The notes beneath the pieces were generated by a model. The model saw only the letters and a list, made by a program, of their open reading frames with translations, did no database searches and was not told where the DNA came from. Shown piece after piece: positions 130-36,100 of a DNA stretch of 64,000 bases. Location of the stretch: NCBI GenBank assembly GCA_037893245.1, contig JBAIAA010000413.1:744001-808000 (forward strand), given 5' to 3'. The DNA comes from Crossaster papposus (taxonomy: Eukaryota; Echinodermata; Asteroidea; Velatida; Solasteridae). The position numbers and the translations under genes are program-made. The first letter of the stretch is position 1, and the number at the start of each line of letters is the position of its first letter.

Positions 130-154
130 GAGCTAGCGTAGAAATGTTCCTTAC

Positions 155-11670: not shown

Positions 11671-14600
11671 GTCTGCCCTCGGATTGAAGCTCAAAAACCA
11701 GGGAGTTGATCCAATGCTATATTTACACAATCCCACCATTTCTTTCACCAAACGGCATCCGTTTTCAAAAGAAATGGTGGGGGCACTTTTAATGCAAATG
11801 AGCTAGCGTAGAAATGTTCCTTACAATTAGGGTGGTGCACCCTATAGGGTGCACCTGCCTAATTCAAGTCCCATTGAAAACAGTGTAAAATCAACAATGT
11901 TCACGACCAAGTTTCTTGCACACCGACATCACTGGGGTTTCTCAAACAACAATCAGATTATTGTCTTGATCTTTATCTTTCCATTTCTTTTCAATTTTTA
12001 GTAGGTTAGCCAATTACATTTTTTAATATTCACACCAAAAGAAACACACCTCCCGAAAAGTGATACTTCCCGAGCCTGCAAGCAGCCATTTTACAAATGG
12101 CATCCCTCCACGTTCTAGGGCAATTAGGACCCATTTTTCAACCGTAATTTTGTCAAGTCTGCCCTCAGATTGAAGCTCAAAAACCAGGGAGTTGATCCTA
12201 TGCTATATTTACACAATCCCACCATTTCTTTCACCAAACGGCATCCGTTTTCAAAAGAAATTGTGGGGGCACTTTTAATGCAAATGAGCTAGCGTAGAAA
12301 TGTTCCTTACAATTAGGGTGGTGCACCCTATAGGGTGCACCTGCCTAATTCAAGTGCCATTGAAAAGAGTGTAAAATCAACAATGTTCACGACCAAGTTT
12401 CTTGCACACCGACATCACTGGGGTTTCTCAAACAACAATCAGATTATTGTCTTGGTCTTTATCTTTCCATTTCTTTTCAATTTTTAGTAGGTTAGCCAAT
12501 TACATTTTTTAATATTCACACCGAAAGAAACACACCTCCCGAAAAGTGATACTTCCCGAGCCTGCAAGCAGCCATTTTACAAATGGCATCCCTCCACGTT
12601 CTAGGGCAATTAGGACCCATTTTTCAACCGTAATTTTGTCAAGTCTGCCCTCGGATTGAAGCTCAAAAACCAGGGAGTTGATCCAATGCTATATTTACAC
12701 AATCCCACCATTTCTTTCACCAAACGGCATCCGTTTTCAAAAGAAATGGTGGGGGCACTTTTAATGCAAATGAGCTAGCGTAGAAATGTTCCTTACAATT
12801 AGGGTGGTGCACCCTATAGGGTGCACCTGCCTAATTCAAGTCCCATTGAAAACAGTGTAAAATCAACCATTTTCACGACCAAGTTTCTTGCACACCGACA
12901 TCACTGGGGTTTCTCAAACAACAATCAGATTATTGTCTGGATCTTTATCTTTCCATTTCTTTTCAATTTTTAGTAGGTTAGCCAATTACATTTTTTAATA
13001 TTCACACCAAAAGAAACACACCTCCCGAAAAGTGATACTTCCCGAGCCTGCAAGCAGCCATTTTACAAATGGCATCCCTCCACGTTCTAGGGCAATTAGG
13101 ACCCATTTTTCAACCGTAATTTTGTCAAGTCTGCCCTCAGATTGAAGCTCAAAAACCAGGGAGTTGATCCTATGCTATATTTACACAATCCCACCATTTC
13201 TTTCACCAAACGGCATCCGTTTTCAAAAGAAATTGTGGGGGCACTTTTAATGCAAATGAGCTAGCGTAGAAATGTTCCTTACAATTATGGTGGTGCACCC
13301 TATAGGGTGCACCTGCCTAATTCAAGTCCCATTGAAAAGAGTGTAAAATCAACAATGTTTACGACCAAGTTTCTTGCACACCGACATCACTGGGGTTTCT
13401 CAAACAACAATCAGATTATTGTCTTGGTCTTTATCTTTCCATTTCTTTTCAATTTTTAGTAGGTTAGCCAATTACATTTTTTAATATTCACACCGAAAGA
13501 AACACACCTCCCGAAAAGTGATACTTCCCAAGCCTGCAAGCAGCCATTTTACAAATGGCATCCCTCCACGTTCTAGGGCAATTAGGACCCATTTTTCAAC
13601 CGTAATTTTGTCAAGTCTGCCCTCGGATTGAAGCTCAAAAACCAGGGAGTTGATCCAATGCTATATTTACACAATCCCACCATTTCTTTCACCAAACGGC
13701 ATCCGTTTTCAAAAGAAATGGTGGGGGCACTTTTAATGCAAATGAGCTAGCGTAGAAATGTTCCTTACAATTAGGGTGGTGCACCCTATAGGGTGCACCT
13801 GCCTAATTCAAGTCCCATTGAAAACAGTGTAAAATCAACAATGTTCACGACCAAGTTTCTTGCACACCGACATCACTGGGGTTTCTCAAACAACAATCAG
13901 ATTATTGTCTTGATCTTTATCTTTCCATTTCTTTTCAATTTTTAGTAGGTTAGCCAATTACATTTTTTAATATTCACACCAAAAGAAACACACCTCCCGA
14001 AAAGTGATACTTCCCGAGCCTGCAAGCAGCCATTTTACAAATGGCATCCCTCCACGTTCTAGGGCAATTAGGACCCATTTTTCAACCGTAATTTTGTCAA
14101 GTCTGCCCTCAGATTGAAGCTCAAAAACCAGGGAGTTGATCCTATGCTATATTTACACAATCCCACCATTTCTTTCACCAAACGGCATCCGTTTTCAAAA
14201 GAAATTGTGGGGGCACTTTTAATGCAAATGAGCTAGCGTAGAAATGTTCCTTACAATTAGGGTGGTGCACCCTATAGGGTGCACCTGCCTAATTCAAGTG
14301 CCATTGAAAAGAGTGTAAAATCAACAATGTTCACGACCAAGTTTCTTGCACACCGACATCACTGGGGTTTCTCAAACAACAATCAGATTATTGTCTTGGT
14401 CTTTATCTTTCCATTTCTTTTCAATTTTTAGTAGGTTAGCCAATTACATTTTTTAATATTCACACCGAAAGAAACACACCTCCCGAAAAGTGATACTTCC
14501 CGAGCCTGCAAGCAGCCATTTTACAAATGGCATCCCTCCACGTTCTAGGGCAATTAGGACCCATTTTTCAACCGTAATTTTGTCAAGTCTGCCCTCGGAT

Positions 14601-15558
14601 TGAAGCTCAAAAACCAGGGAGTTGATCCAATGCTATATTTACACAATCCCACCATTTCTTTCACCAAACGGCATCCGTTTTCAAAAGAAATGGTGGGGGC
14701 ACTTTTAATGCAAATGAGCTAGCGTAGAAATGTTCCTTACAATTAGGGTGGTGCACCCTATAGGGTGCACCTGCCTAATTCAAGTCCCATTGAAAACAGT
14801 GTAAAATCAACCATTTTCACGACCAAGTTTCTTGCACACCGACATCACTGGGGTTTCTCAAACAACAATCAGATTATTGTCTGGATCTTTATCTTTCCAT
14901 TTCTTTTCAATTTTTAGTAGGTTAGCCAATTACATTTTTTAATATTCACACCAAAAGAAACACACCTCCCGAAAAGTGATACTTCCCGAGCCTGCAAGCA
15001 GCCATTTTACAAATGGCATCCCTCCACGTTCTAGGGCAATTAGGACCCATTTTTCAACCGTAATTTTGTCAAGTCTGCCCTCAGATTGAAGCTCAAAAAC
15101 CAGGGAGTTGATCCTATGCTATATTTACACAATCCCACCATTTCTTTCACCAAACGGCATCCGTTTTCAAAAGAAATTGTGGGGGCACTTTTAATGCAAA
15201 TGAGCTAGCGTAGAAATGTTCCTTACAATTATGGTGGTGCACCCTATAGGGTGCACCTGCCTAATTCAAGTCCCATTGAAAAGAGTGTAAAATCAACAAT
15301 GTTTACGACCAAGTTTCTTGCACACCGACATCACTGGGGTTTCTCAAACAACAATCAGATTATTGTCTTGGTCTTTATCTTTCCATTTCTTTTCAATTTT
15401 TAGTAGGTTAGCCAATTACATTTTTTAATATTCACACCGAAAGAAACACACCTCCCGAAAAGTGATACTTCCCGAGCCTGCAAGCAGCCATTTTACAAAT
15501 GGCATCCCTCCACGTTCTAGGGCAATTAGGACCCATTTTTCAACCGTAATTTTGTCAA
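11671..15558. repeat. Tandem duplication of a four-monomer block (2 x 1944 bp)
   Basis: Monomers 11671, 12157, 12643 and 13129 match 13615, 14101, 14587 and 15073 one for one (offset 1944 = 4 x 486). Private markers prove it: CAAGTGCCATT in the second monomer of each copy, CCATTTTCACG with GTCTGGATC in the third, and ATTATGGTGG with GTTTACGACC in the fourth. The block alternates B-A-B-A. The copies look almost identical; one difference is CCCAAGCC near 13525 against CCCGAGCC in the second copy. The fourth monomer is present once more at 15559. Confidence 0.92.
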
Positions 15559-18474
15559 GTCTGCCCTCAGATTGAAGCTCAAAAACCAGGGAGTTGATCC
15601 TATGCTATATTTACACAATCCCACCATTTCTTTCACCAAACGGCATCCGTTTTCAAAAGAAATTGTGGGGGCACTTTTAATGCAAATGAGCTAGCGTAGA
15701 AATGTTCCTTACAATTATGGTGGTGCACCCTATAGGGTGCACCTGCCTAATTCAAGTCCCATTGAAAAGAGTGTAAAATCAACAATGTTTACGACCAAGT
15801 TTCTTGCACACCGACATCACTGGGGTTTCTCAAACAACAATCAGATTATTGTCTTGGTCTTTATCTTTCCATTTCTTTTCAATTTTTAGTAGGTTAGCCA
15901 ATTACATTTTTTAATATTCACACCGAAAGAAACACACCTCCCGAAAAGTGATACTTCCCGAGCCTGCAAGCAGCCATTTTACAAATGGCATCCCTCCACG
16001 TTCTAGGGCAATTAGGACCCATTTTTCAACCGTAATTTTGTCAAGTCTGCCCTCAGATTGAAGCTCAAAAACCAGGGAGTTGATCCTATGCTATATTTAC
16101 ACAATCCCACCATTTCTTTCACCAAACGGCATCCGTTTTCAAAAGAAATTGTGGGGGCACTTTTAATGCAAATGAGCTAGCGTAGAAATGTTCCTTACAA
16201 TTAGGGTGGTGCACCCTATAGGGTGCACCTGCCTAATTCAAGTCCCATTGAAAAGAGTGTAAAATCAACAATGTTCACGACCAAGTTTCTTGCACACCGA
16301 CATCACTGGGGTTTCTCAAACAACAATCAGATTATTGTCTTGGTCTTTATCTTTCCATTTCTTTTCAATTTTTAGTAGGTTAGCCAATTACATTTTTTAA
16401 TATTCACACCGAAAGAAACACACCTCCCGAAAAGTGATACTTCCCGAGCCTGCAAGCAGCCATTTTACAAATGGCATCCCTCCACGTTCTAGGGCAATTA
16501 GGACCCATTTTTCAACCGTAATTTTGTCAAGTCTGCCCTCGGATTGAAGCTCAAAAACCAGGGAGTTGATCCAATGCTATATTTACACAATCCCACCATT
16601 TCTTTCACCAAACGGCATCCGTTTTCAAAAGAAATGGTGGGGGCACTTTTAATGCAAATGAGCTAGCGTAGAAATGTTCCTTACAATTAGGGTGGTGCAC
16701 CCTATAGGGTGCACCTGCCTAATTCAAGTCCCATTGAAAAGAGTGTAAAATCAACAATGTTCACGACCAAGTTTCTTGCACACCGACATCACTGGGGTTT
16801 CTCAAACAACAATCAGATTATTGTCTTGGTCTTTATCTTTCCATTTCTTTTCAATTTTTAGTAGGTTAGCCAATTACATTTTTTAATATTCACACCGAAA
16901 GAAACACACCTCCCGAAAAGTGATACTTCCCGAGCCTGCAAGCAGCCATTTTACAAATGGCATCCCTCCACGTTCTAGGGCAATTAGGACCCATTTTTCA
17001 ACCGTAATTTTGTCAAGTCTGCCCTCGGATTGAAGCTCAAAAACCAGGGAGTTGATCCAATGCTATATTTACACAATCCCACCATTTCTTTCACCAAACG
17101 GCATCCGTTTTCAAAAGAAATTGTGGGGGCACTTTTAATGCAAATGAGCTAGCGTAGAAATGTTCCTTACAATTAGGGTGGTGCACCCTATAGGGTGCAC
17201 CTGCCTAATTCAAGTCCCATTGAAAACAGTGTAAAATCAACAATGTTCACGACCAAGTTTCTTGCACACCGACATCACTGGGGTTTCTCAAACAACAATC
17301 AGATTATTGTCTTGGTCTTTATCTTTCCATTTCTTTTCAATTTTTAGTAGGTTAGCCAATTACATTTTTTAATATTCACACCGAAAGAAACACACCTCCC
17401 GAAAAGTGATACTTCCCGAGCCTGCAAGCAGCCATTTTACAAATGGCATCCCTCCACGTTCTAGGGCAATTAGGACCCATTTTTCAACCGTAATTTTGTC
17501 AAGTCTGCCCTCGGATTGAAGCTCAAAAACCAGGGAGTTGATCCAATGCTATATTTACACAATCCCACCATTTCTTTCACCAAACGGCATCCGTTTTCAA
17601 AAGAAATGGTGGGGGCACTTTTAATGCAAATGAGCTAGCGTAGAAATGTTCCTTACAATTAGGGTGGTGCACCCTATAGGGTGCACCTGCCTAATTCAAG
17701 TCCCATTGAAAACAGTGTAAAATCAACAATGTTCACGACCAAGTTTCTTGCACACCGACATCACTGGGGTTTCTCAAACAACAATCAGATTATTGTCTTG
17801 ATCTTTATCTTTCCATTTCTTTTCAATTTTTAGTAGGTTAGCCAATTACATTTTTTAATATTCACACCAAAAGAAACACACCTCCCGAAAAGTGATACTT
17901 CCCGAGCCTGCAAGCAGCCATTTTACAAATGGCATCCCTCCACGTTCTAGGGCAATTAGGACCCATTTTTCAACCGTAATTTTGTCAAGTCTGCCCTCAG
18001 ATTGAAGCTCAAAAACCAGGGAGTTGATCCTATGCTATATTTACACAATCCCACCATTTCTTTCACCAAACGGCATCCGTTTTCAAAAGAAATTGTGGGG
18101 GCACTTTTAATGCAAATGAGCTAGCGTAGAAATGTTCCTTACAATTAGGGTGGTGCACCCTATAGGGTGCACCTGCCTAATTCAAGTCCCATTGAAAAGA
18201 GTGTAAAATCAACAATGTTCACGACCAAGTTTCTTGCACACCGACATCACTGGGGTTTCTCAAACAACAATCAGATTATTGTCTTGGTCTTTATCTTTCC
18301 ATTTCTTTTCAATTTTTAGTAGGTTAGCCAATTACATTTTTTAATATTCACACCGAAAGAAACACACCTCCCGAAAAGTGATACTTCCCGAGCCTGCAAG
18401 CAGCCATTTTACAAATGGCATCCCTCCACGTTCTAGGGCAATTAGGACCCATTTTTCAACCGTAATTTTGTCAA
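15559..18474. repeat. Transition sub-array, 6 monomers
   Basis: Monomer 15559 repeats the ATTATGGTGG and GTTTACG markers of 15073 and is a tandem copy of it. Monomer 16045 is A. Monomer 16531 is a recombinant, with 11G, 43A and 106G (B) followed by 211G, 299G and 367G (A). Monomer 17017 has 11G, 43A, 106T and 211C with an A-type tail. Monomers 17503 (B) and 17989 (A) lead into the large higher-order unit. Confidence 0.8.
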
Positions 18475-21092
18475 GTCTGCCCTCGGATTGAAGCTCAAAA
18501 ACCAGGGAGTTGATCCAATGCTATATTTACACAATCCCACCATTTCTTTCACCAAACGGCATCCGTTTTCAAAAGAAATGGTGGGGGCACTTTTAATGCA
18601 AATGAGCTAGCGTAGAAATGTTCCTTACAATTAGGGTGGTGCACCCTATAGGGTGCACCTGCCTAATTCAAGTCCCATTGAAAACAGTGTAAAATCAACA
18701 ATGTTCACGACCAAGTTTCTTGCACACCGACATCACTGGGGTTTCTCAAACAACAATCAGATTATTGTCTTGATCTTTATCTTTCCATTTCTTTTCAATT
18801 TTTAGTAGGTTAGCCAATTACATTTTTTAATATTCACACCAAAAGAAACACACCTCCCGAAAAGTGATACTTCCCGAGCCTGCAAGCAGCCATTTTACAA
18901 ATGGCATCCCTCCACGTTCTAGGGCAATTAGGACCCATTTTTCAACCGTAATTTTGTCAAGTCTGCCCTCAGATTGAAGCTCAAAAACCAGGGAGTTGAT
19001 CCTATGCTATATTTACACAATCCCACCATTTCTTTCACCAAACGGCATCCGTTTTCAAAAGAAATTGTGGGGGCACTTTTAATGCAAATGAGCTAGCGTA
19101 GAAATGTTCCTTACAATTAGGGTGGTGCACCCTATAGGGTGCACCTGCCTAATTCAAGTCCCATTGAAAAGAGTGTAAAATCAACAATGTTCACGACCAA
19201 GTTTCTTGCACACCGACATCACTGGGGTTTCTCAAACAACAATCAGATTATTGTCTTGGTCTTTATCTTTCCATTTCTTTTCAATTTTTAGTAGGTTAGC
19301 CAATTACATTTTTTAATATTCACACCGAAAGAAACACACCTCCCGAAAAGTGATACTTCCCGAGCCTGCAAGCAGCCATTTTACAAATGGCATTCCTCCA
19401 CGTTCTAGGGCAATTAGGACCCATTTTTCAACCGTAATTTTGTCAAGTCTGCCCTCAGATTGAAGCTCAAAAACCAGGGAGTTGATCCTATGCTATATTT
19501 ACACAATCCCACCATTTCTTTCACCAAACGGCATCCGTTTTCAAAAGAAATTGTGGGGGCACTTTTAATGCAAATGAGCTAGCGTAGAAATGTTCCTTAC
19601 AATTAGGGTGGTGCACCCTATAGGGTGCACCTGCCTAATTCAAGTCCCATTGAAAAGAGTGTAAAATCAACAATGTTCACGACCAAGTTTCTTGCACACC
19701 GACATCACTGGGGTTTCTCAAACAACAATCAGATTATTGTCTTGGTCTTTATCTTTCCATTTCTTTTCAATTTTTAGTAGGTTAGCCAATTACATTTTTT
19801 AATATTCACACCGAAAGAAACACACCTCCCGAAAAGTGATACTTCCCGAGCCTGCAAGCAGCCATTTTACAAATGGCATCCCTCCACGTTCTAGGGCAAT
19901 TAGGACCCATTTTTCAACCGTAATTTTGTCAAGTCTGCCCTCGGATTGAAGCTCAAAAACCAGGGAGTTGATCCAATGCTATATTTACACAATCCCACCA
20001 TTTCTTTCACCAAACGGCATCCGTTTTCAAAAGAAATGGTGGGGGCACTTTTAATGCAAATGAGCTAGCGTAGAAATGTTCCTTACAATTAGGGTGGTGC
20101 ACCCTATAGGGTGCACCTGCCTAATTCAAGTCCCATTGAAAACAGTGTAAAATCAACAATGTTCACGACCAAGTTTCTTGCACACCGACATCACTGGGGT
20201 TTCTCAAACAACAATCAGATTATTGTCTTGATCTTTATCTTTCCATTTCTTTTCAATTTTTAGTAGGTTAGCCAATTACATTTTTTAATATTCACACCAA
20301 AAGAAACACACCTCCCGAAAAGTGATACTTCCCGAGCCTGCAAGCAGCCATTTTACAAATGGCATCCCTCCACGTTCTAGGGCAATTAGGACCCATTTTT
20401 CAACCGTAATTTTGTCAAGTCTGCCCTCAGATTGAAGCTCAAAAACCAGGGAGTTGATCCTATGCTATATTTACACAATCCCACCATTTCTTTCACCAAA
20501 CGGCATCCGTTTTCAAAAGAAATTGTGGGGGCACTTTTAATGCAAATGAGCTAGCGTAGAAATGTTCCTTACAATTAGGGTGGTGCACCCTATAGGGTGC
20601 ACCTGCCTAATTCAAGTCCCATTGAAAAGAGTGTAAAATCAACAATGTTCACGACCAAGTTTCTTGCACACCGACATCACTGGGGTTTCTCAAACAACAA
20701 TCAGATTATTGTCTTGGTCTTTATCTTTCCATTTCTTTTCAATTTTTAGTAGGTTAGCCAATTACATTTTTTAATATTCACACCGAAAGAAACACACCTC
20801 CCGAAAAGTGATACTTCCCGAGCCTGCAAGCAGCCATTTTACAAATGGCATCCCTCCACGTTCTAGGGCAATTAGGACCCATTTTTCAACCGTAATTTTG
20901 TCAAGTCTGCCCTCAGATTGAAGCTCAAAAACCAGGGAGTTGATCCTATGCTATATTTACACAATCCCACCATTTCTTTCACCAAACGGCATCCGTTTTC
21001 AAAAGAAATTGTGGGGGCACTTTTAATGCAAATGAGCTAGCGTAGAAATGTTCCTTACAATTAGGGTGGTGCACCCTATAGGGTGCACCTGC

Positions 21093-21102
21093 CTAATCTA
21101 AT
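21093..21102. repeat. 5-bp tandem duplication (CTAAT)x2, copy 1
   Basis: The pentamer CTAAT is doubled in the right flank of the 40-bp dyad, making the monomer at 20905 491 bp long. The identical change at 32762-32771 lies at the matching place in the second higher-order unit, so both come from one event that predates the large duplication. Confidence 0.92.
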
Positions 21103-22367
21103 TCAAGTCCCATTGAAAAGAGTGTAAAATCAACAATGTTCACGACCAAGTTTCTTGAACACCGACATCACTGGGGTTTCTCAAACAACAATCAGATTAT
21201 TGTCTTGGTCTTTATCTTTCCATTTCTTTTCAATTTTTAGTAGGTTAGCCAATTACATTTTTTAATATTCACACCGAAAGAAACACACCTCCCGAAAAGT
21301 GATACTTCCCGAGCCTGCAAGCAGCCATTTTACAAATGGCATCCCTCCACGTTCTAGGGCAATTAGGACCCATTTTTCAACCGTAATTTTGTCAAGTCTG
21401 CCCTCGGATTGAAGCTCAAAAACCAGGGAGTTGATCCAATGCTATATTTACACAATCCCACCATTTCTTTCACCAAACGGCATCCGTTTTCAAAAGAAAT
21501 GGTGGGGGCACTTTTAATGCAAATGAGCTAGCGTAGAAATGTTCCTTACAATTAGGGTGGTGCACCCTATAGGGTGCACCTGCCTAATTCAAGTCCCATT
21601 GAAAACAGTGTAAAATCAACAATGTTCACGACCAAGTTTCTTGCACACCGACATCACTGGGGTTTCTCAAACAACAATCAGATTATTGTCTTGATCTTTA
21701 TCTTTCCATTTCTTTTCAATTTTTAGTAGGTTAGCCAATTACATTTTTTAATATTCACACCAAAAGAAACACACCTCCCGAAAAGTGATACTTCCCGAGC
21801 CTGCAAGCAGCCATTTTACAAATGGCATCCCTCCACGTTCTAGGGCAATTAGGACCCATTTTTCAACCGTAATTTTGTCAAGTCTGCCCTCAGATTGAAG
21901 CTCAAAAACCAGGGAGTTGATCCTATGCTATATTTACACAATCCCACCATTTCTTTCACCAAACGGCATCCGTTTTCAAAAGAAATTGTGGGGGCACTTT
22001 TAATGCAAATGAGCTAGCGTAGAAATGTTCCTTACAATTAGGGTGGTGCACCCTATAGGGTGCACCTGCCTAATTCAAGTCCCATTGAAAAGAGTGTAAA
22101 ATCAACAATGTTCACGACCAAGTTTCTTGCACACCGACATCACTGGGGTTTCTCAAACAACAATCAGATTATTGTCTTGGTCTTTATCTTTCCATTTCTT
22201 TTCAATTTTTAGTAGGTTAGCCAATTACATTTTTTAATATTCACACCGAAAGAAACACACCTCCCGAAAAGTGATACTTCCCGAGCCTGCAAGCAGCCAT
22301 TTTACAAATGGCATCCCTCCACGTTCTAGGGCAATTAGGACCCATTTTTCAACCGTAATTTTGTCAA

Positions 22368-24797
22368 GTCTGCCCTCAGATTGAAGCTCAAAAACCAGGG
22401 AGTTGATCCTATGCTATATTTACACAATCCCACCATTTCTTTCACCAAACGGCATCCGTTTTCAAAAGAAATTGTGGGGGCACTTTTAATGCAAATGAGC
22501 TAGCGTAGAAATATTCCTTACAATTAGGGTGGTGCACCCTATAGGTTGCCCCTGCCTAATTCAAGTCCCATTGAAAAGAGTGTAAAATCAACAATGTTCA
22601 CGACCAAGTTTCTTGCACACCGACATCACTGGGGTTTCTCAAACAACAATCAGATTATTGTCTTGGTCTTTATCTTTCCATTTCTTTTCAATTTTTAGTA
22701 GGTTAGCCAATTACATTTTTTAATATTCACACCGAAAGAAACACACCTCCCGAAAAGTGATACTTCCCGAGCCTGCAAGCAGCCATTTTACAAATGGCAT
22801 CCCTCCACGTTCTAGGGCAATTAGGACCCATTTTTCAACCGTAATTTTGTCAAGTCTGCCCTCAGATTAAAGCTCAAAAACCAGGGAATTGATCCTATGC
22901 TATATTTACACAATCCCACCATTTCTTTCACCAAACGGCATCCGTTTTCAAAAGAAATGGTGGGGGCACTTTTAATGCAAATGAGCTAGCGTAGAAATGT
23001 TCCTTACAATTAGGGTGGTGCACCCTATAGGGTGCACCTGCCTAATTCAAGTCCCATTGAAAACAGTGTAAAATCAACAATGTTCACGACCAAGTTTCTT
23101 GCACACCGACATCACTGGGGTTTCTCAAACAACAATCAGATTATTGTCTTGATCTTTATCTTTCCATTTCTTTTCAATTTTTAGTAGGTTAGCCAATTAC
23201 ATTTTTTAATATTCACACCAAAAGCAACACACCTCCCGAAAAGTGATACTTCCCGAGCCTGCAAGCAGCCATTTTACAAATGGCATCCCTCCACGTTCTA
23301 GGGCAATTAGGATCCATTTTTCAACCGTAATTTTGTCAAGTCTGCCCTCAGATTGAAGCTAAAAAACCAGGGAGTTGATCCTATGCTATATTTACACAAT
23401 CCCACCATTTCTTTCACCAAACGGCATCCGTTTTCAAAAGAAATTGTGGGGGCACTTTTAATGCAAATGAGCTAGCGTAGAAATGTTCCTTACAATTAGG
23501 GTGGTGCACCCTATAGGGTGCACCTGCCTAATTCAAGTCCCATTGAAAAGAGTGTAAAATCAACAATGTTCACGACCAAGTTTCTTGCACACCGACATCA
23601 CTGGGGTTTCTCAAACAACAATCAGATTATTGTCTTGGTCTTTATCTTTCCATTTCTTTTCAATTTTTAGTAGGTTAGCCAATTACATTTTTTAATATTC
23701 ACACCGAAAGAAACACACCTCCCGAAAAGTGATACTTCCCGAGTCTGCAAGCAGCCATTTTACAAATGGCATCCCTCCACGTTCTAGGGCAATTAGGACC
23801 CATTTTTCAACCGTAATTTTGTCAAGTCTGCCCTCAGATTAAAGCTCAAAAACCAGGGAGTTGATCCTATGCTATATTTACACAATCCCACCATTTCTTT
23901 CACCAAACGGCATCCGTTTTCAAAAGAAATTGTGGGGGCACTTTTAATGCAAATGAGCTAGCGTAGAAATGTTCCTGACAATTAGGGTGGTGCACCCTAT
24001 AGGGTGCACCTGCCTAATTCAAGTCCCATTGAAAACAGTGTAAAATCAACAATGTTCACGACCAAGTTTCTTGCACACCAACATCACTGGGGTTTCTCAA
24101 ACAACAATCAGATTATTGTCTTGGTCTTTATCTTTCCATTTCTTTTCAATTTTTAGTAGGTTAGCCAATTACATTTTTTAATATTCACACCGAAAGAAAC
24201 ACACCTCCCGAAAAGTGATACTTCCCGAGCCTGCAAGCAGCCATTTTACAAATGGCATCCCTCCACGTTCTAGGGCAATTAGGACCCATTTTTCAACCGT
24301 AATTTTGTCAAGTCTGCCCTCGGATTGAAGCTCAAAAACCAGGGAGTTGATCCAATGCTATATTTACACAATCCCACCATTTCTTTCACCAAACGGCATC
24401 CGTTTTCAAAAGAAATTGTGGGGGCACTTTTAATGCAAATGAGCTAGCGTAGAAATGTTCCTTACAATTAGGGTGGTGCACCCTATAGGGTGCACCTGCC
24501 TAATTCAAGTCCCATTGAAAAGAGTGTAAAATCAACAATGTTCACGACCAAGTTTCTTGCACACCGACATCACTGGGGTTTCTCAAACAACAATCAGATT
24601 ATTGTCTTGGTCTTTATCTTTCCATTTCTTTTCAATTTTTAGTAGGTTAGCCAATTACATTTTTTAATATTCACACCGAAAGAAACACACCTCCCGAAAA
24701 GTGATACTTCCCGAGCCTGCAAGCAGCCATTTTACAAATGGCATCCCTCCACGTTCTAGGGCAATTAGGACCCATTTTTCAACCGTAATTTTGTCAA
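22368..24797. repeat. Five-monomer block, first tandem copy (2430 bp)
   Basis: Monomers 22368, 22854, 23340 and 23826 match 24798, 25284, 25770 and 26256 at every private marker I checked. The fifth monomer (24312) does not match its counterpart (26742). It has the B head (11G, 43A) and the A tail (106T, 211G, 299G, 367G). That is what unequal crossing-over between a B monomer such as 26742 and the A monomer 21882 would leave at the junction. Confidence 0.9.
24312..24797. repeat. Chimeric junction monomer (B head, A tail)
   Basis: Diagnostic bases: 24322 G and 24354 A (B-like), then 24417 T, followed by 211G, 299G and 367G (A-like). The switch lies between 24355 and 24416. No equivalent chimera exists in the second higher-order unit, where the five-monomer block is single. 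Confidence 0.88.
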
Positions 24798-27227
24798 GTC
24801 TGCCCTCAGATTGAAGCTCAAAAACCAGGGAGTTGATCCTATGCTATATTTACACAATCCCACCATTTCTTTCACCAAACGGCATCCGTTTTCAAAAGAA
24901 ATTGTGGGGGCACTTTTAATGCAAATGAGCTAGCGTAGAAATATTCCTTACAATTAGGGTGGTGCACCCTATAGGTTGCCCCTGCCTAATTCAAGTCCCA
25001 TTGAAAAGAGTGTAAAATCAACAATGTTCACGACCAAGTTTCTTGCACACCGACATCACTGGGGTTTCTCAAACAACAATCAGATTATTGTCTTGGTCTT
25101 TATCTTTCCATTTCTTTTCAATTTTTAGTAGGTTAGCCAATTACATTTTTTAATATTCACACCGAAAGAAACACACCTCCCGAAAAGTGATACTTCCCGA
25201 GCCTGCAAGCAGCCATTTTACAAATGGCATCCCTCCACGTTCTAGGGCAATTAGGACCCATTTTTCAACCGTAATTTTGTCAAGTCTGCCCTCAGATTAA
25301 AGCTCAAAAACCAGGGAATTGATCCTATGCTATATTTACACAATCCCACCATTTCTTTCACCAAACGGCATCCGTTTTCAAAAGAAATGGTGGGGGCACT
25401 TTTAATGCAAATGAGCTAGCGTAGAAATGTTCCTTACAATTAGGGTGGTGCACCCTATAGGGTGCACCTGCCTAATTCAAGTCCCATTGAAAACAGTGTA
25501 AAATCAACAATGTTCACGACCAAGTTTCTTGCACACCGACATCACTGGGGTTTCTCAAACAACAATCAGATTATTGTCTTGATCTTTATCTTTCCATTTC
25601 TTTTCAATTTTTAGTAGGTTAGCCAATTACATTTTTTAATATTCACACCAAAAGCAACACACCTCCCGAAAAGTGATACTTCCCGAGCCTGCAAGCAGCC
25701 ATTTTACAAATGGCATCCCTCCACGTTCTAGGGCAATTAGGATCCATTTTTCAACCGTAATTTTGTCAAGTCTGCCCTCAGATTGAAGCTAAAAAACCAG
25801 GGAGTTGATCCTATGCTATATTTACACAATCCCACCATTTCTTTCACCAAACGGCATCCGTTTTCAAAAGAAATTGTGGGGGCACTTTTAATGCAAATGA
25901 GCTAGCGTAGAAATGTTCCTTACAATTAGGGTGGTGCACCCTATAGGGTGCACCTGCCTAATTCAAGTCCCATTGAAAAGAGTGTAAAATCAACAATGTT
26001 CACGACCAAGTTTCTTGCACACCGACATCACTGGGGTTTCTCAAACAACAATCAGATTATTGTCTTGGTCTTTATCTTTCCATTTCTTTTCAATTTTTAG
26101 TAGGTTAGCCAATTACATTTTTTAATATTCACACCGAAAGAAACACACCTCCCGAAAAGTGATACTTCCCGAGTCTGCAAGCAGCCATTTTACAAATGGC
26201 ATCCCTCCACGTTCTAGGGCAATTAGGACCCATTTTTCAACCGTAATTTTGTCAAGTCTGCCCTCAGATTAAAGCTCAAAAACCAGGGAGTTGATCCTAT
26301 GCTATATTTACACAATCCCACCATTTCTTTCACCAAACGGCATCCGTTTTCAAAAGAAATTGTGGGGGCACTTTTAATGCAAATGAGCTAGCGTAGAAAT
26401 GTTCCTGACAATTAGGGTGGTGCACCCTATAGGGTGCACCTGCCTAATTCAAGTCCCATTGAAAACAGTGTAAAATCAACAATGTTCACGACCAAGTTTC
26501 TTGCACACCAACATCACTGGGGTTTCTCAAACAACAATCAGATTATTGTCTTGGTCTTTATCTTTCCATTTCTTTTCAATTTTTAGTAGGTTAGCCAATT
26601 ACATTTTTTAATATTCACACCGAAAGAAACACACCTCCCGAAAAGTGATACTTCCCGAGCCTGCAAGCAGCCATTTTACAAATGGCATCCCTCCACGTTC
26701 TAGGGCAATTAGGACCCATTTTTCAACCGTAATTTTGTCAAGTCTGCCCTCGGATTGAAGCTCAAAAACCAGGGAGTTGATCCAATGCTATATTTACACA
26801 ATCCCACCATTTCTTTCACCAAACGGCATCCGTTTTCAAAAGAAATGGTGGGGGCACTTTTAATGCAAATGAGCTAGCGTAGAAATGTTCCTTACAATTA
26901 GGGTGGTGCACCCTATAGGGTGCACCTGCCTAATTCAAGTCCCATTGAAAACAGTGTAAAATCAACAATGTTCACGACCAAGTTTCTTGCACACCGACAT
27001 CACTGGGGTTTCTCAAACAACAATCAGATTATTGTCTTGATCTTTATCTTTCCATTTCTTTTCAATTTTTAGTAGGTTAGCCAATTACATTTTTTAATAT
27101 TCACACCAAAAGAAACACACCTCCCGAAAAGTGATACTTCCCGAGCCTGCAAGCAGCCATTTTACAAATGGCATCCCTCCACGTTCTAGGGCAATTAGGA
27201 CCCATTTTTCAACCGTAATTTTGTCAA
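24798..27227. repeat. Five-monomer block, second tandem copy (2430 bp)
   Basis: Monomers 24798, 25284, 25770, 26256 and 26742 carry the private markers of the preceding block, and the last is full B. The set matches 34037-36466 in the second higher-order unit, including the full-B fifth monomer at 35981. This copy therefore keeps the ancestral arrangement better than the first. Confidence 0.9.
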
Positions 27228-30143
27228 GTCTGCCCTCAGATTGAAGCTCAAAAACCAGGGAGTTGATCCTATGCTATATTTACACAATCCCACCATTTCT
27301 TTCACCAAACGGCATCCGTTTTCAAAAGAAATTGTGGGGGCACTTTTAATGCAAATGAGCTAGCGTAGAAATGTTCCTTACAATTAGGGTGGTGCACCCT
27401 ATAGGGTGCACCTGCCTAATTCAAGTCCCATTGAAAAGAGTGTAAAATCAACAATGTTCACGACCAAGTTTCTTGCACACCGACATCACTGGGGTTTCTC
27501 AAACAACAATCAGATTATTGTCTTGGTCTTTATCTTTCCATTTCTTTTCAATTTTTAGTAGGTTAGCCAATTACATTTTTTAATATTCACACCGAAAGAA
27601 ACACACCTCCCGAAAAGTGATACTTCCCGAGCCTGCAAGCAGCCATTTTAAAAATGGCATCCCTCCACGTTCTAGGGCAATTAGGACCCATTTTTCAACC
27701 GTAATTTTGTCAAGTCTGCCCTCGGATTGAAGCTCAAAAACCAGGGAGTTGATCCTATGCTATATTTACACAATCCCACCATTTCTTTCACCAAACGGCA
27801 TCCGTTTTCAAAAGAAATGGTGGGGGCACTTTTAATGCAAATGAGCTAGCGTAGAAATGTTCCTTACAATTAGGGTGGTGCACCCTATAGGGTGCACCTG
27901 CCTAATTCAAGTCCCATTGAAAACAGTGTAAAATCAACAATGTTCACGACCAAGTTTCTTGCACACCGACATCACTGGGGTTTCTCAAACAACAATCAGA
28001 TTATTGTCTTGATCTTTATCTTTCCATTTCTTTTCAATTTTTAGTAGGTTAGCCAATTACATTTTTTAATATTCACACCAAAAGAAACACACCTCCCGAA
28101 AAGTGATACTTCCCGAGCCTGCAAGCAGCCATTTTACAAATGGCATCCCTCCACGTTCTAGGGCAATTAGGACCCATTTTTCAACCGTAATTTTGTCAAG
28201 TCTGCCCTCAGATTGAAGCTCAAAAACCAGGGAGTTGATCCTATGCTATATTTACACAATCCCACCATTTCTTTCACCAAACGGCATCCGTTTTCAAAAG
28301 AAATTGTGGGGGCACTTTTAATGCAAATGAGCTAGCGTAGAAATGTTCCTTACAATTAGGGTGGTGCACCCTATAGGGTGCACCTGCCTAATTCAAGTCC
28401 CATGGAAGACAGTGTAAAATCAACAATGTTCACGACCAAGTTTCTTGCACACCGACATCACTGGGGTTTCTCAAACAACAATCAGATTATTGTCTTGGTC
28501 TTTATCTTTCCATTTCTTTTCAATTTTTAGTAGGTTAGCCAATTACATTTTTTAATATTCACACCGAAAGAAACACACCTCCCGAAAAGTGATACTTCCC
28601 GAGCCTGCAAGCAGCCATTTTACAAATGGCATCCCTCCACGTTCTAGGGCAATTAGGACCCATTTTTCAACCGTAATTTTGTCAAGTCTGCCCTCAGATT
28701 GAAGCTCAAAAACCAGGGAGTTGATCCTGTGCTATATTTACACAATCCCACCATTTCTTTCACCAAACGGCATCCGTTTTCAAAAGAAATTGTGGGGGCA
28801 CTTTTAATGCAAATGAGCTAGCGTAGAAATGTTCCTTACAATTAGGGTGGTGCACCCTATAGGGTGCACCTGCCTAATTCAAGTCCCATTGAAAAGAGTG
28901 TAAAATCAACAATGTTCACGACCAAGTTTCTTGCACACCGACATCACTGGGGTTTCTCAAACAACAATCAGATTATTGTCTTGGTCTTTATCTTTCCATT
29001 TCTTTTCAATTTTTAGTAGGTTAGCTAATTACATTTTTTAATATTCACACCGAAAGAAACACACCTCCCGAAAAGTGATACTTCCCGAGCCTGCAAGCAG
29101 CCATTTTACAAATGGCATCCCTCCACGTTCTAGGGCAATTAGGACCCATTTTTCAACCGTAATTTTGTCAAGTCTGCCCTCAGATTGAAGCTCAAAAACC
29201 AGGGAGTTGATCCTATGCTATATTTACACAATCCCACCATTTCTTTCACCAAACGGCATCCGTTTTCAAAAGAAATTGTGGGGGCACTTTTAATGCAAAT
29301 GAGCTAGCGTAGAAATGTTCCTTACAATTAGGGTGGTGCACCCTATAGGGTGCACCTGCCTAATTCAAGTCCCATGGAAAACAGTGTAAAATCAACAATG
29401 TTCACGACCAAGTTTCTTGCACACCGACATCACTGGGGTTTCTCAAACAACAATCAGATTATTGTCTTGGTCTTTATCTTTCCATTTCTTTTCAATTTTT
29501 AGTAGGTTAGCCAATTACATTTTTTAATATTCACACCGAAAGAAACACACCTCCCGAAAAGTGATACTTCCCGAGCCTGCAAGCAGCCATTTTACAAATG
29601 GCATCCCTCCACGTTCTAGGGCAATTAGGACCCATTTTTCAACCGTAATTTTGTCAAGTCTGCCCTCAGATTGAAGCTCAAAAACCAGGGAGTTGATCCT
29701 ATGCTATATTTACACAATCCCACCATTTCTTTCACCAAACGGCATCCGTTTTCAAAAGAAATTGTGGGGGCACTTTTAATGCAAATGAGCTAGCGTAGAA
29801 ATGTTCCTTACAATTAGGGTGGTGCACCCTATAGGGTGCACCTGCCTAATTCAAGTCCCATGGAAAACAGTGTAAAATCAACAATGTTCACGACCAAGTT
29901 TCTTGCACACCGACATCACTGGGGTTTCTCAAACAACAATCAGATTATTGTCTTGGTCTTTATCTTTCCATTTCTTTTCAATTTTTAGTAGGTTAGCCAA
30001 TTACATTTTTTAATATTCACACCGAAAGAAACACACCTCCCGAAAAGTGATACTTCCCGAGCCTGCAAGCAGCCATTTTACAAATGGCATCCCTCCACGT
30101 TCTAGGGCAATTAGGACCCATTTTTCAACCGTAATTTTGTCAA

Positions 30144-33100
30144 GTCTGCCCTCGGATTGAAGCTCAAAAACCAGGGAGTTGATCCAATGCTATATTTACA
30201 CAATCCCACCATTTCTTTCACCAAACGGCATCCGTTTTCAAAAGAAATGGTGGGGGCACTTTTAATGCAAATGAGCTAGCGTAGAAATGTTCCTTACAAT
30301 TAGGGTGGTGCACCCTATAGGGTGCACCTGCCTAATTCAAGTCCCATTGAAAACAGTGTAAAATCAACAATGTTCACGACCAAGTTTCTTGCACACCGAC
30401 ATCACTGGGGTTTCTCAAACAACAATCAGATTATTGTCTTGATCTTTATCTTTCCATTTCTTTTCAATTTTTAGTAGGTTAGCCAATTACATTTTTTAAT
30501 ATTCACACCAAAAGAAACACACCTCCCGAAAAGTGATACTTCCCGAGCCTGCAAGCAGCCATTTTACAAATGGCATCCCTCCACGTTCTAGGGCAATTAG
30601 GACCCATTTTTCAACCGTAATTTTGTCAAGTCTGCCCTCAGATTGAAGCTCAAAAACCAGGGAGTTGATCCTATGCTATATTTACACAATCCCACCATTT
30701 CTTTCACCAAACGGCATCCGTTTTCAAAAGAAATTGTGGGGGCACTTTTAATGCAAATGAGCTAGCGTAGAAATGTTCCTTACAATTAGGGTGGTGCACC
30801 CTATAGGGTGCACCTGCCTAATTCAAGTCCCATTGAAAAGAGTGTAAAATCAACAATGTTCACGACCAAGTTTCTTGCACACCGACATCACTGGGGTTTC
30901 TCAAACAACAATCAGATTATTGTCTTGGTCTTTATCTTTCCATTTCTTTTCAATTTTTAGTAGGTTAGCCAATTACATTTTTTAATATTCACACCGAAAG
31001 AAACACACCTCCCGAAAAGTGATACTTCCCGAGCCTGCAAGCAGCCATTTTACAAATGGCATCCCTCCACGTTCTAGGGCAATTAGGACCCATTTTTCAA
31101 CCGTAATTTTGTCAAGTCTGCCCTCAGATTGAAGCTCAAAAACCAGGGAGTTGATCCTATGCTATATTTACACAATCCCACCATTTCTTTCACCAAACGG
31201 CATCCGTTTTCAAAAGAAATTGTGGGGGCACTTTTAATGCAAATGAGCTAGCGTAGAAATGTTCCTTACAATTAGGGTGGTGCACCCTATAGGGTGCACC
31301 TGCCTAATTCAAGTCCCATTGAAAAGAGTGTAAAATCAACAATGTTCACGACCAAGTTTCTTGCACACCGACATCACTGGGGTTTCTCAAACAACAATCA
31401 GATTATTGTCTTGGTCTTTATCTTTCCATTTCTTTTCAATTTTTAGTAGGTTAGCCAATTACATTTTTTAATATTCACACCGAAAGAAACACACCTCCCG
31501 AAAAGTGATACTTCCCGAGCCTGCAAGCAGCCATTTTACAAATGGCATCCCTCCACGTTCTAGGGCAATTAGGACCCATTTTTCAACCGTAATTTTGTCA
31601 AGTCTGCCCTCGGATTGAAGCTCAAAAACCAGGGAGTTGATCCAATGCTATATTTACACAATCCCACCATTTCTTTCACCAAACGGCATCCGTTTTCAAA
31701 AGAAATGGTGGGGGCACTTTTAATGCAAATGAGCTAGCGTAGAAATGTTCCTTACAATTAGGGTGGTGCACCCTATAGGGTGCACCTGCCTAATTCAAGT
31801 CCCATTGAAAACAGTGTAAAATCAACAATGTTCACGACCAAGTTTCTTGCACACCGACATCACTGGGGTTTCTCAAACAACAATCAGATTATTGTCTTGA
31901 TCTTTATCTTTCCATTTCTTTTCAATTTTTAGTAGGTTAGCCAATTACATTTTTTAATATTCACACCAAAAGAAACACACCTCCCGAAAAGTGATACTTC
32001 CCGAGCCTGCAAGCAGCCATTTTACAAATGGCATCCCTCCACGTTCTAGGGCAATTAGGACCCATTTTTCAACCGTAATTTTGTCAAGTCTGCCCTCAGA
32101 TTGAAGCTCAAAAACCAGGGAGTTGATCCTATGCTATATTTACACAATCCCACCATTTCTTTCACCAAACGGCATCCGTTTTCAAAAGAAATTGTGGGGG
32201 CACTTTTAATGCAAATGAGCTAGCGTAGAAATGTTCCTTACAATTAGGGTGGTGCACCCTATAGGGTGCACCTGCCTAATTCAAGTCCCATTGAAAAGAG
32301 TGTAAAATCAACAATGTTCACGACCAAGTTTCTTGCACACCGACATCACTGGGGTTTCTCAAACAACAATCAGATTATTGTCTTGGTCTTTATCTTTCCA
32401 TTTCTTTTCAATTTTTAGTAGGTTAGCCAATTACATTTTTTAATATTCACACCGAAAGAAACACACCTCCCGAAAAGTGATACTTCCCGAGCCTGCAAGC
32501 AGCCATTTTACAAATGGCATCCCTCCACGTTCTAGGGCAATTAGGACCCATTTTTCAACCGTAATTTTGTCAAGTCTGCCCTCAGATTGAAGCTCAAAAA
32601 CCAGGGAGTTGATCCTATGCTATATTTACACAATCCCACCATTTCTTTCACCAAACGGCATCCGTTTTCAAAAGAAATTGTGGGGGCACTTTTAATGCAA
32701 ATGAGCTAGCGTAGAAATGTTCCTTACAATTAGGGTGGTGCACCCTATAGGGTGCACCTGCCTAATCTAATTCAAGTCCCATTGAAAAGAGTGTAAAATC
32801 AACAATGTTCACGACCAAGTTTCTTGCACACCGACATCACTGGGGTTTCTCAAACAACAATCAGATTATTGTCTTGGTCTTTATCTTTCCATTTCTTTTC
32901 AATTTTTAGTAGGTTAGCCAATTACATTTTTTAATATTCACACCGAAAGAAACACACCTCCCGAAAAGTGATACTTCCCGAGCCTGCAAGCAGCCATTTT
33001 ACAAATGGCATCCCTCCACGTTCTAGGGCAATTAGGACCCATTTTTCAACCGTAATTTTGTCAAGTCTGCCCTCGGATTGAAGCTCAAAAACCAGGGAGT

Positions 33101-36100
33101 TGATCCAATGCTATATTTACACAATCCCACCATTTCTTTCACCAAACGGCATCCGTTTTCAAAAGAAATGGTGGGGGCACTTTTAATGCAAATGAGCTAG
33201 CGTAGAAATGTTCCTTACAATTAGGGTGGTGCACCCTATAGGGTGCACCTGCCTAATTCAAGTCCCATTGAAAACAGTGTAAAATCAACAATGTTCACGA
33301 CCAAGTTTCTTGCACACCGACATCACTGGGGTTTCTCAAACAACAATCAGATTATTGTCTTGATCTTTATCTTTCCATTTCTTTTCAATTTTTAGTAGGT
33401 TAGCCAATTACATTTTTTAATATTCACACCAAAAGAAACACACCTCCCGAAAAGTGATACTTCCCGAGCCTGCAAGCAGCCATTTTACAAATGGCATCCC
33501 TCCACGTTCTAGGGCAATTAGGACCCATTTTTCAACCGTAATTTTGTCAAGTCTGCCCTCAGATTGAAGCTCAAAAACCAGGGAGTTGATCCTATGCTAT
33601 ATTTACACAATCCCACCATTTCTTTCACCAAACGGCATCCGTTTTCAAAAGAAATTGTGGGGGCACTTTTAATGCAAATGAGCTAGCGTAGAAATGTTCC
33701 TTACAATTAGGGTGGTGCACCCTATAGGGTGCACCTGCCTAATTCAAGTCCCATTGAAAAGAGTGTAAAATCAACAATGTTCACGACCAAGTTTCTTGCA
33801 CACCGACATCACTGGGGTTTCTCAAACAACAATCAGATTATTGTCTTGGTCTTTATCTTTCCATTTCTTTTCAATTTTTAGTAGGTTAGCCAATTACATT
33901 TTTTAATATTCACACCGAAAGAAACACACCTCCCGAAAAGTGATACTTCCCGAGCCTGCAAGCAGCCATTTTACAAATGGCATCCCTCCACGTTCTAGGG
34001 CAATTAGGACCCATTTTTCAACCGTAATTTTGTCAAGTCTGCCCTCAGATTGAAGCTCAAAAACCAGGGAGTTGATCCTATGCTATATTTACACAATCCC
34101 ACCATTTCTTTCACCAAACGGCATCCGTTTTCAAAAGAAATTGTGGGGGCACTTTTAATGCAAATGAGCTAGCGTAGAAATATTCCTTACAATTAGGGTG
34201 GTGCACCCTATAGGTTGCCCCTGCCTAATTCAAGTCCCATTGAAAAGAGTGTAAAATCAACAATGTTCACGACCAAGTTTCTTGCACACCGACATCACTG
34301 GGGTTTCTCAAACAACAATCAGATTATTGTCTTGGTCTTTATCTTTCCATTTCTTTTCAATTTTTAGTAGGTTAGCCAATTACATTTTTTAATATTCACA
34401 CCGAAAGAAACACACCTCCCGAAAAGTGATACTTCCCGAGCCTGCAAGCAGCCATTTTACAAATGGCATCCCTCCACGTTCTAGGGCAATTAGGACCCAT
34501 TTTTCAACCGTAATTTTGTCAAGTCTGCCCTCAGATTAAAGCTCAAAAACCAGGGAATTGATCCTATGCTATATTTACACAATCCCACCATTTCTTTCAC
34601 CAAACGGCATCCGTTTTCAAAAGAAATGGTGGGGGCACTTTTAATGCAAATGAGCTAGCGTAGAAATGTTCCTTACAATTAGGGTGGTGCACCCTATAGG
34701 GTGCACCTGCCTAATTCAAGTCCCATTGAAAACAGTGTAAAATCAACAATGTTCACGACCAAGTTTCTTGCACACCGACATCACTGGGGTTTCTCAAACA
34801 ACAATCAGATTATTGTCTTGATCTTTATCTTTCCATTTCTTTTCAATTTTTAGTAGGTTAGCCAATTACATTTTTTAATATTCACACCAAAAGCAACACA
34901 CCTCCCGAAAAGTGATACTTCCCGAGCCTGCAAGCAGCCATTTTACAAATGGCATCCCTCCACGTTCTAGGGCAATTAGGATCCATTTTTCAACCGTAAT
35001 TTTGTCAAGTCTGCCCTCAGATTGAAGCTAAAAAACCAGGGAGTTGATCCTATGCTATATTTACACAATCCCACCATTTCTTTCACCAAACGGCATCCGT
35101 TTTCAAAAGAAATTGTGGGGGCACTTTTAATGCAAATGAGCTAGCGTAGAAATGTTCCTTACAATTAGGGTGGTGCACCCTATAGGGTGCACCTGCCTAA
35201 TTCAAGTCCCATTGAAAAGAGTGTAAAATCAACAATGTTCACGACCAAGTTTCTTGCACACCGACATCACTGGGGTTTCTCAAACAACAATCAGATTATT
35301 GTCTTGGTCTTTATCTTTCCATTTCTTTTCAATTTTTAGTAGGTTAGCCAATTACATTTTTTAATATTCACACCGAAAGAAACACACCTCCCGAAAAGTG
35401 ATACTTCCCGAGTCTGCAAGCAGCCATTTTACAAATGGCATCCCTCCACGTTCTAGGGCAATTAGGACCCATTTTTCAACCGTAATTTTGTCAAGTCTGC
35501 CCTCAGATTAAAGCTCAAAAACCAGGGAGTTGATCCTATGCTATATTTACACAATCCCACCATTTCTTTCACCAAACGGCATCCGTTTTCAAAAGAAATT
35601 GTGGGGGCACTTTTAATGCAAATGAGCTAGCGTAGAAATGTTCCTGACAATTAGGGTGGTGCACCCTATAGGGTGCACCTGCCTAATTCAAGTCCCATTG
35701 AAAACAGTGTAAAATCAACAATGTTCACGACCAAGTTTCTTGCACACCAACATCACTGGGGTTTCTCAAACAACAATCAGATTATTGTCTTGGTCTTTAT
35801 CTTTCCATTTCTTTTCAATTTTTAGTAGGTTAGCCAATTACATTTTTTAATATTCACACCGAAAGAAACACACCTCCCGAAAAGTGATACTTCCCGAGCC
35901 TGCAAGCAGCCATTTTACAAATGGCATCCCTCCACGTTCTAGGGCAATTAGGACCCATTTTTCAACCGTAATTTTGTCAAGTCTGCCCTCGGATTGAAGC
36001 TCAAAAACCAGGGAGTTGATCCAATGCTATATTTACACAATCCCACCATTTCTTTCACCAAACGGCATCCGTTTTCAAAAGAAATGGTGGGGGCACTTTT

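Follow-up and report, generated by a model that had tools for sequence, protein, structure and literature searches.

The window, which is the whole 64,000-bp stretch of DNA that was analysed, comes from an echinoderm, most likely a sea star, and is occupied from end to end by a 486-bp satellite array. Contig C413 is 1458.6 kb long, and in 10-kb stretches sampled along it the array is seen between about 375.6 kb and 1360 kb. The features discussed below are:

1..64000, plus strand: 486-bp satellite array, the whole window (C413:744001-808000; TRF, 131.7 copies, 98%)
18200..29868, plus strand: copy 1 of a large tandem duplication (lags 11669, 9239 and 9725; boundary ambiguous within about 29869-30153)
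21882..22367, plus strand: monomer A, consensus haplotype, probable parent of the H tail (six-site comparison, haplotype map)
22368..24311, plus strand: block copy 1a, haplotypes 7-8-9-10, identical to copy 1b and to 34037-35980
24312..24797, plus strand: monomer H, the junction monomer, with a B head and an A tail (six diagnostic sites)
24355..24416, plus strand: exchange interval of 62 bp on H; the partner interval on A is 21925-21986
24373..24422, plus strand: nested inverted repeat in the consensus monomer, overlapping the exchange interval; a causal role is not supported
24484..24487, no strand: TATA linker between neighbouring elements; dispersed copies have target site duplications of the same 4-bp length
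24488..24969, plus strand: complete 482-bp MITE-like unit, GGGTGCACC...GGTGCACCC, spanning H and the next monomer
24798..26741, plus strand: block copy 1b, haplotypes 7-8-9-10 (haplotype identity)
26742..27227, plus strand: monomer B, probable parent of the H head (six-site comparison, haplotype map)
29869..39593, plus strand: copy 2 of the large tandem duplication, with a single block (unit 9725 bp)
33551..36466, plus strand: unduplicated counterpart in copy 2 (A' at 33551, haplotypes 7-8-9-10 at 34037-35980, B' at 35981)
37439..37924, plus strand: consensus monomer in copy 2, absent from copy 1 (lag and haplotype comparison; best taken as a loss from copy 1)

The repeat unit

Judged by its sequence, the repeat unit resembles a complete small transposon, a MITE-like element of 482 bp, followed by a 4-base linker, TATA. 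The terminal inverted repeats match at 16 of their first 18 bases, the ends of the element being GGGTGCACCnnCCTAATT, and copies dispersed elsewhere in the genome have the same inverted ends as the monomer. Twenty-six dispersed copies were read, nine of which are truncated or interrupted and were not scored for a target duplication. Among the 17 full-length copies, 11 are flanked by exact 4-bp target duplications (control, 5 of 272 mismatched pairs); the flanks of the other six match over 2, 5 or 7 bases in one copy each and over none in three. A target duplication of 4 bp is compatible with several transposon superfamilies. The terminus of the A subtype has 1730 matches, in which dispersed and arrayed copies are mixed, and the first 100 of these are spread over many contigs. 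Querying the genome with the whole monomer, in a search that passes over very common words, gave no match.

The linker is TATA at all 183 pattern-matched junctions on C413 (104 kb), and it varies between arrays, the forms being TATA, TATATA and TAATATA. C195, which has a TATATA-linked dimer, and C223 carry linkers of 6 and 7 bases, longer than strict target-site length. Linkers of 0-3 bases occur in one place only, on C412. Besides C413, there are arrays on C4, C20, C105 and C223. The array was presumably started by one element inserting beside another. One MITE family may even have founded satellite arrays repeatedly in this genome, each insertion fixing its own linker, with unequal exchanges of the kind described below then expanding one or more of the arrays to roughly a megabase. 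The chances of this are put slightly short of even, since TATA is absent from the 11 exact target duplications, a small sample, and four junctions on C20 read TTATA or TATAA.

The five-monomer duplication and monomer H

Five repeat units have been doubled in the stretch from 22368 to 27227, leaving the clean trace of a single unequal exchange. Four of the five monomers, those with haplotypes 7, 8, 9 and 10, are identical between the tandem copies, as a preliminary description had noted. The fifth monomer of the first copy, H, had been described there as a B-head/A-tail hybrid, which base-by-base alignment with A and B bears out. Monomers A and B differ at six sites (monomer positions 11, 43, 106, 211, 299 and 367). 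H has the B state at positions 11 and 43 and the A state at 106, 211, 299 and 367, and in the same base-by-base comparison it has no position unlike both. It equals B through 24354 and A from 24417 on, so that there is a single switch, within 24355-24416.

The joint is located in two ways. The self-match at a lag of 2430 is exact over 21925-24416, a length of 2492 bp, which is one unit plus 62 bp. Since this lag equals 5 × 486, monomer phase is preserved and there is homology at the joint. When copy 1 is compared with copy 2 of the large duplication, the lag is 11669 up to 24416 and 9239 from 24355, and this change of lag places the same 62-bp joint by a second comparison. The preliminary description had called H the exact product predicted of a recombination between B and A. 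Removing 2430 bp and then applying one five-monomer in-register exchange does regenerate the window, at 63 adjacent points, but 9 of the 443 other monomers sampled have the same sequence as H (10 of 444 counting H). Because H occurs elsewhere in the array, a hybrid of this kind is not diagnostic alone. Strict exact B-head/A-tail forms make up 30 of the 444 sampled monomers, H among them. No monomer matches the H tail better than A, which matches it exactly, yet the tail (positions 44-486) is also exact in others, 53 of the 443 in all with A included; the head (positions 1-105) is matched exactly by 136 of the 443. With so many exact matches to both parts, the parents of H are identified by their position and not by their sequence.

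The dispersed copies, used as an outgroup, mostly carry A11, T43, T106, C211, G299 and A367. H unites the derived G11 and A43 of B with the derived G211 and G367 of A. Since derived alleles of both parents are joined in it, the sequence of H is recombinant and not an ancestral form. In the 1.02-Gb assembly, the haplotype-7 and haplotype-8 markers each have three matches, all at this locus, and neither was found on a second contig. The haplotype-9 marker has six matches: three in the blocks and a single further one on each of C413, C181 and C456.

The proposed exchange and its alternatives

The block and H were very probably made by a single unequal homologous exchange, five monomers out of step and in phase, and one in-register exchange of B with A is supported as a joint explanation of block, junction and length. 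In such an event the array would pair five monomers out of step yet in monomer phase, the pairing unit being the whole MITE-like element with its 4-bp TATA linker. A single unequal exchange between homologous sequences, sister chromatids being the likeliest partners, would then connect B of one chromatid (now at 26742) with A of its partner (now at 21882) somewhere in a run of 62 identical bases. With the exchange point inside a monomer, a B-head/A-tail monomer would be left at the joint, and the product would be 2430 bp longer with monomer phase retained. The partners were presumably sisters and the event presumably a reciprocal crossover. Gain by one-sided copying, through break-induced replication, synthesis-dependent annealing or a replication fork switching template back by five monomers, is a variant of the same explanation and a serious one, if somewhat short of an even chance. 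It predicts identical sequence, namely an exact second copy, retained phase and one homologous joint; the sequence separates neither form from the other, and the joint has no extra switch or non-homologous patch.

It is possible that the monomer at the joint was there before the duplication, as an ordinary monomer with the BBAAAA pattern, or was later gene-converted, its hybrid look being unconnected with the duplication. H-like monomers are found elsewhere (of the 444 monomers sampled, 49 show the BBAAAA pattern and 10, counting H, have its exact sequence), yet this account is improbable: it requires an additional event, the block in copy 2 is flanked by A-type and B-type neighbours, and the joint given by the lags of the large duplication coincides with the switch in H. 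Even though a highly identical tandem array invites misjoined or mis-phased reads, an assembly artefact is extremely improbable, as the haplotype-7 and haplotype-8 markers are absent from all other contigs and long reads are generally expected to exceed the 2.5 kb of the repeated stretch.

Order of the two duplications

The two copies of the large duplication differ by 3 substitutions in 9523 bp compared. Copy 2 has only one block, at 34037-35980 between A' and B', as had been claimed, and copy 1 has gained five monomers and probably lost one. The consensus monomer at 37439..37924 is best read as the counterpart of that one-monomer loss, with an exchange in 28081-28403. The single block in copy 2 is also what the preliminary description relied on in placing the five-monomer event after the large duplication. 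That order may be correct, parsimony leaning towards it, but the clock is indecisive: for a duplication as old as the large one, zero differences in 2492 bp would have a probability of 0.46, and dating the order of the two by divergence is uninformative. The same value is compatible with an older five-monomer duplication, after which copy 2 lost one block, and a loss between identical blocks would by its nature leave no scar. Such a history needs three events against two and appears unlikely.

Other duplications and candidate exchange sites

Similar in-phase scars are found elsewhere in the array. Every lag from 400 to 29,999 was scanned, and 8 perfect duplications of 2-5 monomers were found in 104 kb; because only matches covering one unit or more were accepted, some of the homology at the joints follows from how this catalogue was made. 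All 8 are in monomer phase, one 17-bp deletion allowed for. Twelve sampled 10-kb stretches contain 5 further perfect duplications, which brings the multi-monomer total to 13 over about 224 kb. In 500 shuffles of monomer order (200 monomers of 486 bp, out of 214), perfect tandem duplications of 4-11 monomers never arise and those of 3 monomers arise 0.002 times per shuffle. Besides the five-monomer duplication, the scan of 104 kb gave these in the window:

17228..19393, plus strand: perfect tandem duplication of 2 monomers, exchange interval 18200-18421
40074..42291, plus strand: perfect tandem duplication of 2 monomers, exchange interval 41046-41319
41790..43766, plus strand: perfect tandem duplication of 2 monomers, exchange interval 42762-42794
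42762..45772, plus strand: perfect tandem duplication of 3 monomers, exchange interval 44220-44314

The switch interval in H had been said to fall mostly in the nested inverted repeat, and 44 of its 62 bases do. As a single strand, this repeat has a strong predicted fold (-12.9 kcal/mol, z -5.35). Both facts would suit an exchange caused by a hairpin-triggered break. Among the 13 junctions, 11 are informative (L017 and L021 were left out because their ambiguity exceeds one monomer), and just 3 of these 11 touch the inverted repeat (positions 62-111), against 4.24 expected at random. The proposed link between repeat and exchange therefore does not hold up as a hotspot at these 11 junctions, and a hairpin-triggered break is very improbable. 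The terminal palindrome (positions 164-185) was rejected as a hotspot on the same 11 junctions, since contact, at 1 of 11 against 3.59, is below random expectation.

Relation to known satellites

In the textbook view, satellite evolution is driven by unequal exchange, and Smith is said to have treated unequal crossover in satellite arrays in 1976. It is an ordinary mechanism of array growth, of which the present case is unusually clear: parents and joint can seldom all be read, and here they are found together with the product, with the block in its unduplicated state, and with dispersed transposon copies that serve as an outgroup and polarise the alleles. The sizes and positions of exchanges are thereby open to cataloguing. 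In the open literature, a joint query for unequal crossing over with a hybrid monomer in a satellite gave no match. For a tandem satellite of 486 bp the match is a paper on wheat, and for tandem satellites of sea stars it is one on bindin. Echinoderm satellites and terminal inverted repeats led to a paper on Merlin.

In alpha satellite higher-order repeats, unequal crossover and hybrid monomers in structural variants are described in a review (PMC9549924). According to the same review, the visibility of a hybrid depends on where the monomer is cut (PMC9549924), which applies to H as well. Alpha satellite, as described there, resembles the present array in gaining and losing whole monomers, in keeping its monomer length and in having hybrid monomers. 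It differs in sequence and host; in the present array, one contig shows the two parents, the 62-bp joint and the block in its unduplicated form.

The transposon origin of the monomer and its linkers make a test case for the founding of tandem arrays. The double-insertion account presumably goes back to work on hobo by McGurk and Barbash (2018). Satellites can form when a whole transposable element becomes tandemly arrayed, among other routes when two copies insert into the same target site (PMC12628747). The satellite described there shares with the present array head-to-tail elements and a linker of target-duplication length; here, in contrast, the element is a non-autonomous one of 482 bp, the array is about 1 Mb, arrays with other linkers occur in the same genome, and the founding step is deduced. 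Other MITE-related satellites are Xstir and miDNA4 in Xenopus and HindIII in bivalves (PMC9659126, PMC12628747). All three, like the present array, tie a MITE family to tandem arrays. Xstir and miDNA4 are described there as involving internal or captured segments, whereas the present monomer is a whole element with both inverted ends.

The satellite array and the duplication joint

The entire window (C413:744001-808000) is a satellite array with a period of 486 (131.7 copies), in an assembly of 1.02 Gb and 1841 contigs. Walking the array with 10-kb flanks gave 172 monomers of 90 haplotypes, two further flanks gave 104 contiguous kb with 214 monomers, and twelve 10-kb samples of the same array brought the total to 444. 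Monomer-to-monomer identity averages 99.0% (5000 random pairs). The features concerned (forward-strand positions) are:

18200-29868, large tandem duplication, copy 1
29869-39593, large tandem duplication, copy 2 (counterparts A' and B')
21882-22367, monomer A
22368-24311 and 24798-26741, four-monomer block 7-8-9-10 (haplotype numbers), with a third at 34037-35980 in copy 2
24312-24797, hybrid junction monomer H
24355-24416, switch interval (62 bp)
24373-24422, nested inverted repeat (monomer positions 62-111)
26742-27227, monomer B

Monomers A and B differ at six sites. H has the B state at 24322 and 24354 and the A state at 24417, 24522, 24610 and 24678, with zero other differences. The monomer order around H is A, 7, 8, 9, 10, H, 7, 8, 9, 10, B, 22, 23, while in copy 2 it is A', 7, 8, 9, 10, B', 22, 23. 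The preliminary description, in which four of five monomers match and the fifth has a B head and an A tail, is exact. Its single switch within 24355-24416 also stands, since base comparison gives one change from B to A and nothing unlike both. A test independent of monomer cut points, the self-match at lag 2430, is exact from 21925 to 24416; these 2492 bp exceed one unit by 62 bp. Likewise, the lag at which copy 1 agrees with copy 2 is 11669 as far as 24416 and 9239 from 24355 onward, which places the joint where H switches. After removal of 2430 bp, the window can be restored by a single in-phase exchange at any of 63 adjoining points, as expected if H is the product of an exchange between B and A. 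The exchange mechanism, which is well supported, is an already known one.

Descent of the hybrid monomer

The sequence of H is not unique, which weakens the strong form of the hybrid claim. Of the 443 other sampled monomers, 9 are exact copies of H, 53 have exactly its tail and 136 exactly its head. Strict exact hybrids among all 444 comprise 30 with a B head and an A tail (one of them H) and 6 with an A head and a B tail, and 199 of the 444 switch more than once across the six sites. Because H has copies elsewhere, its parents are named by position: A lies before the block and B after it, and both are present in copy 2. A related point in a published review is that hybrid status depends on where the monomer is taken to start (PMC9549924).

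The polarity of the six sites was taken from 26 fetched dispersed copies of the repeat, used as outgroup.

Outgroup states at the six sites (26 copies)
Site 11: A 22, C 1, missing 3
Site 43: T 20, C 1, A 1, missing 4
Site 106: T 20, G 1, missing 5
Site 211: C 23, missing 3
Site 299: G 23, A 1, missing 2
Site 367: A 26

Nine monomers of an array on contig C223 agree with these states. The derived alleles are G211 and G367 in A, and G11, A43, G106 and A299 in B. H has G11, A43, G211 and G367; as it joins derived alleles of both, it is a recombinant by descent wherever it first formed, barring recurrent mutation.

Chance, order of events and hotspots

In 500 reorderings of the 200 monomers of 486 bp (14 of 214 left out), perfect tandem duplications arose 0.27 times per shuffle for two monomers, 0.002 times for three and never for four to 11. 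The true order of these monomers has 5, 2, 1 and 1 perfect duplications of 2, 3, 4 and 5 monomers, counts that differ from the eight of the 104-kb scan because 14 monomers are dropped. Assembly-wide, the markers used for haplotype 7 (54 bases) and haplotype 8 (20 bases) each have three matches, all in the three blocks; the haplotype-9 marker has six, in the three blocks, at one other site on C413 (the contig of the window) and on C181 and C456.

Over 9523 bp the two large copies have 3 substitutions between them; they also differ by one monomer, probably lost from copy 1, since the consensus monomer is not an exchange product of its neighbours (haplotypes 23 and 24). The five-monomer copies have no differences in 2492 bp, an outcome with a probability of 0.46 if both duplications were equally old. 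The proposal that the five-monomer event came after the large duplication therefore keeps its parsimony argument (two events versus three), but divergence does not discriminate.

Most of the switch interval does lie inside the inverted repeat (44 of 62 bases), which has a good predicted fold. A link between this repeat and exchange is not supported, and neither is any exchange hotspot. Perfect duplications of more than one monomer number 13 in the catalogue, 8 from the 104 kb and 5 from the twelve 10-kb stretches; the 11 whose joint is narrower than one monomer were used. Positions 62-111 are touched by 3 of the 11 joints (4.24 expected at random), and the palindrome at 164-185 by 1 (3.59 expected). 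The 104-kb scan, which covered all lags of 400 to 29,999, found in-phase units only, among matches of at least one unit with joints unscarred by later mutation. One of these units is 1441 bp, three monomers minus a 17-bp deletion.

Such a deletion (158-174) occurs in five monomers (67547, 69960, 71401, 72356 and 73311, flank L002), and a 14-bp deletion (164-177) in one (53477). Both are within or beside the terminal palindrome. By eye, a TAGGGTG direct repeat stands on either side of the former, which resembles the outcome of replication slippage. Single monomers are also labelled by short tandem insertions, 5 bp at 20905 and 32574 (CTAAT) and 6 bp at 7291 (CCGAAA), which are useful for aligning the large duplication.

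A MITE-like element as satellite unit

The transposon origin of the unit, for which other organisms offer described counterparts, is the more interesting fact. At positions 164-185 (e.g. 24475-24496) the monomer reads GGTGCACCCTATAGGGTGCACC, and full-length single copies outside arrays (453 to 487 bp) start with GGGTGCACC and end with GGTGCACCC, or nearly so. The unit ends are inverted repeats that agree at 16 of their first 18 bases. Dispersed single copies are present on many contigs (L023-L028, L032-L051). The 26 examined comprise 6 from the first matches of a 31-base search and 20 hand-picked from early terminus matches, avoiding clusters; 17 are full-length, and 9 are truncated or interrupted and were left unscored. 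An exact 4-bp target duplication flanks 11 of the 17, one each matches over 2, 5 and 7 bases, and 3 have none; the frequency of a 4-bp match in mismatched pairs is 5 of 272. Given these ends and duplications, the monomer consists of an entire MITE-like element of 482 bp and a linker of 4 bp. The linker is TATA in all 183 junctions matched in 104 kb by a pattern that skips junctions substituted beside it. TATA is absent among the 11 exact duplications, which makes a strong preference of the element for TATA less likely. One dispersed copy (L026) is enclosed, by eye, within an inverted repeat of greater length (tttaaaggctagag ... ctctagcctttaaa), possibly as a nested insertion in another element.

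Other tandem forms of the element have other linkers: TAATATA in an array on C223 (L052), TATATA in a dimer on C195 (L055), TAATATA or TAATGTA in minus-strand junctions of C105 among the matches listed, and TTATA (TATAA on the other strand) at four places on C20. On C79 (L053), a tandem of about 1138 bp has roughly 650 bp of additional DNA. Genome-wide, linkers of 5-14 bases give 1621 matches; C78, with an unrelated 21-bp repeat, and a place on C48 account for some of them. Linkers of 0-3 bases occur at a single place, on C412. A published model in which double insertion takes place at a shared target site predicts linkers of this kind (PMC12628747). Arrays with different linkers may have been founded separately.

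Genomic setting and other contigs

The genome contains 16,084 matches to the 31-base piece of the repeat (7821 + 8263), long runs on C4 included. On C413, 199-bp and 64/75-bp satellites precede the 486-bp array (L003-L008, C413:1-375600), the latter adjoining it at about 375.6 kb. The array does not extend to the right end of the contig; the non-satellite DNA there (L022) appears, by eye, to encode cysteine-rich EGF-like repeats. C8 looks like a bacterial contig inside the animal assembly. It has COX1-family matches without stops at C8:5208663 (L029) and C8:2872001-2873343, one of them with a CyoA-like protein, by eye, upstream. Translated with the echinoderm code, the mitochondrial contig (C1841) makes sense, and open reading frames that look by eye like ND1 and ND2 are oriented against COX1, the arrangement of sea stars.
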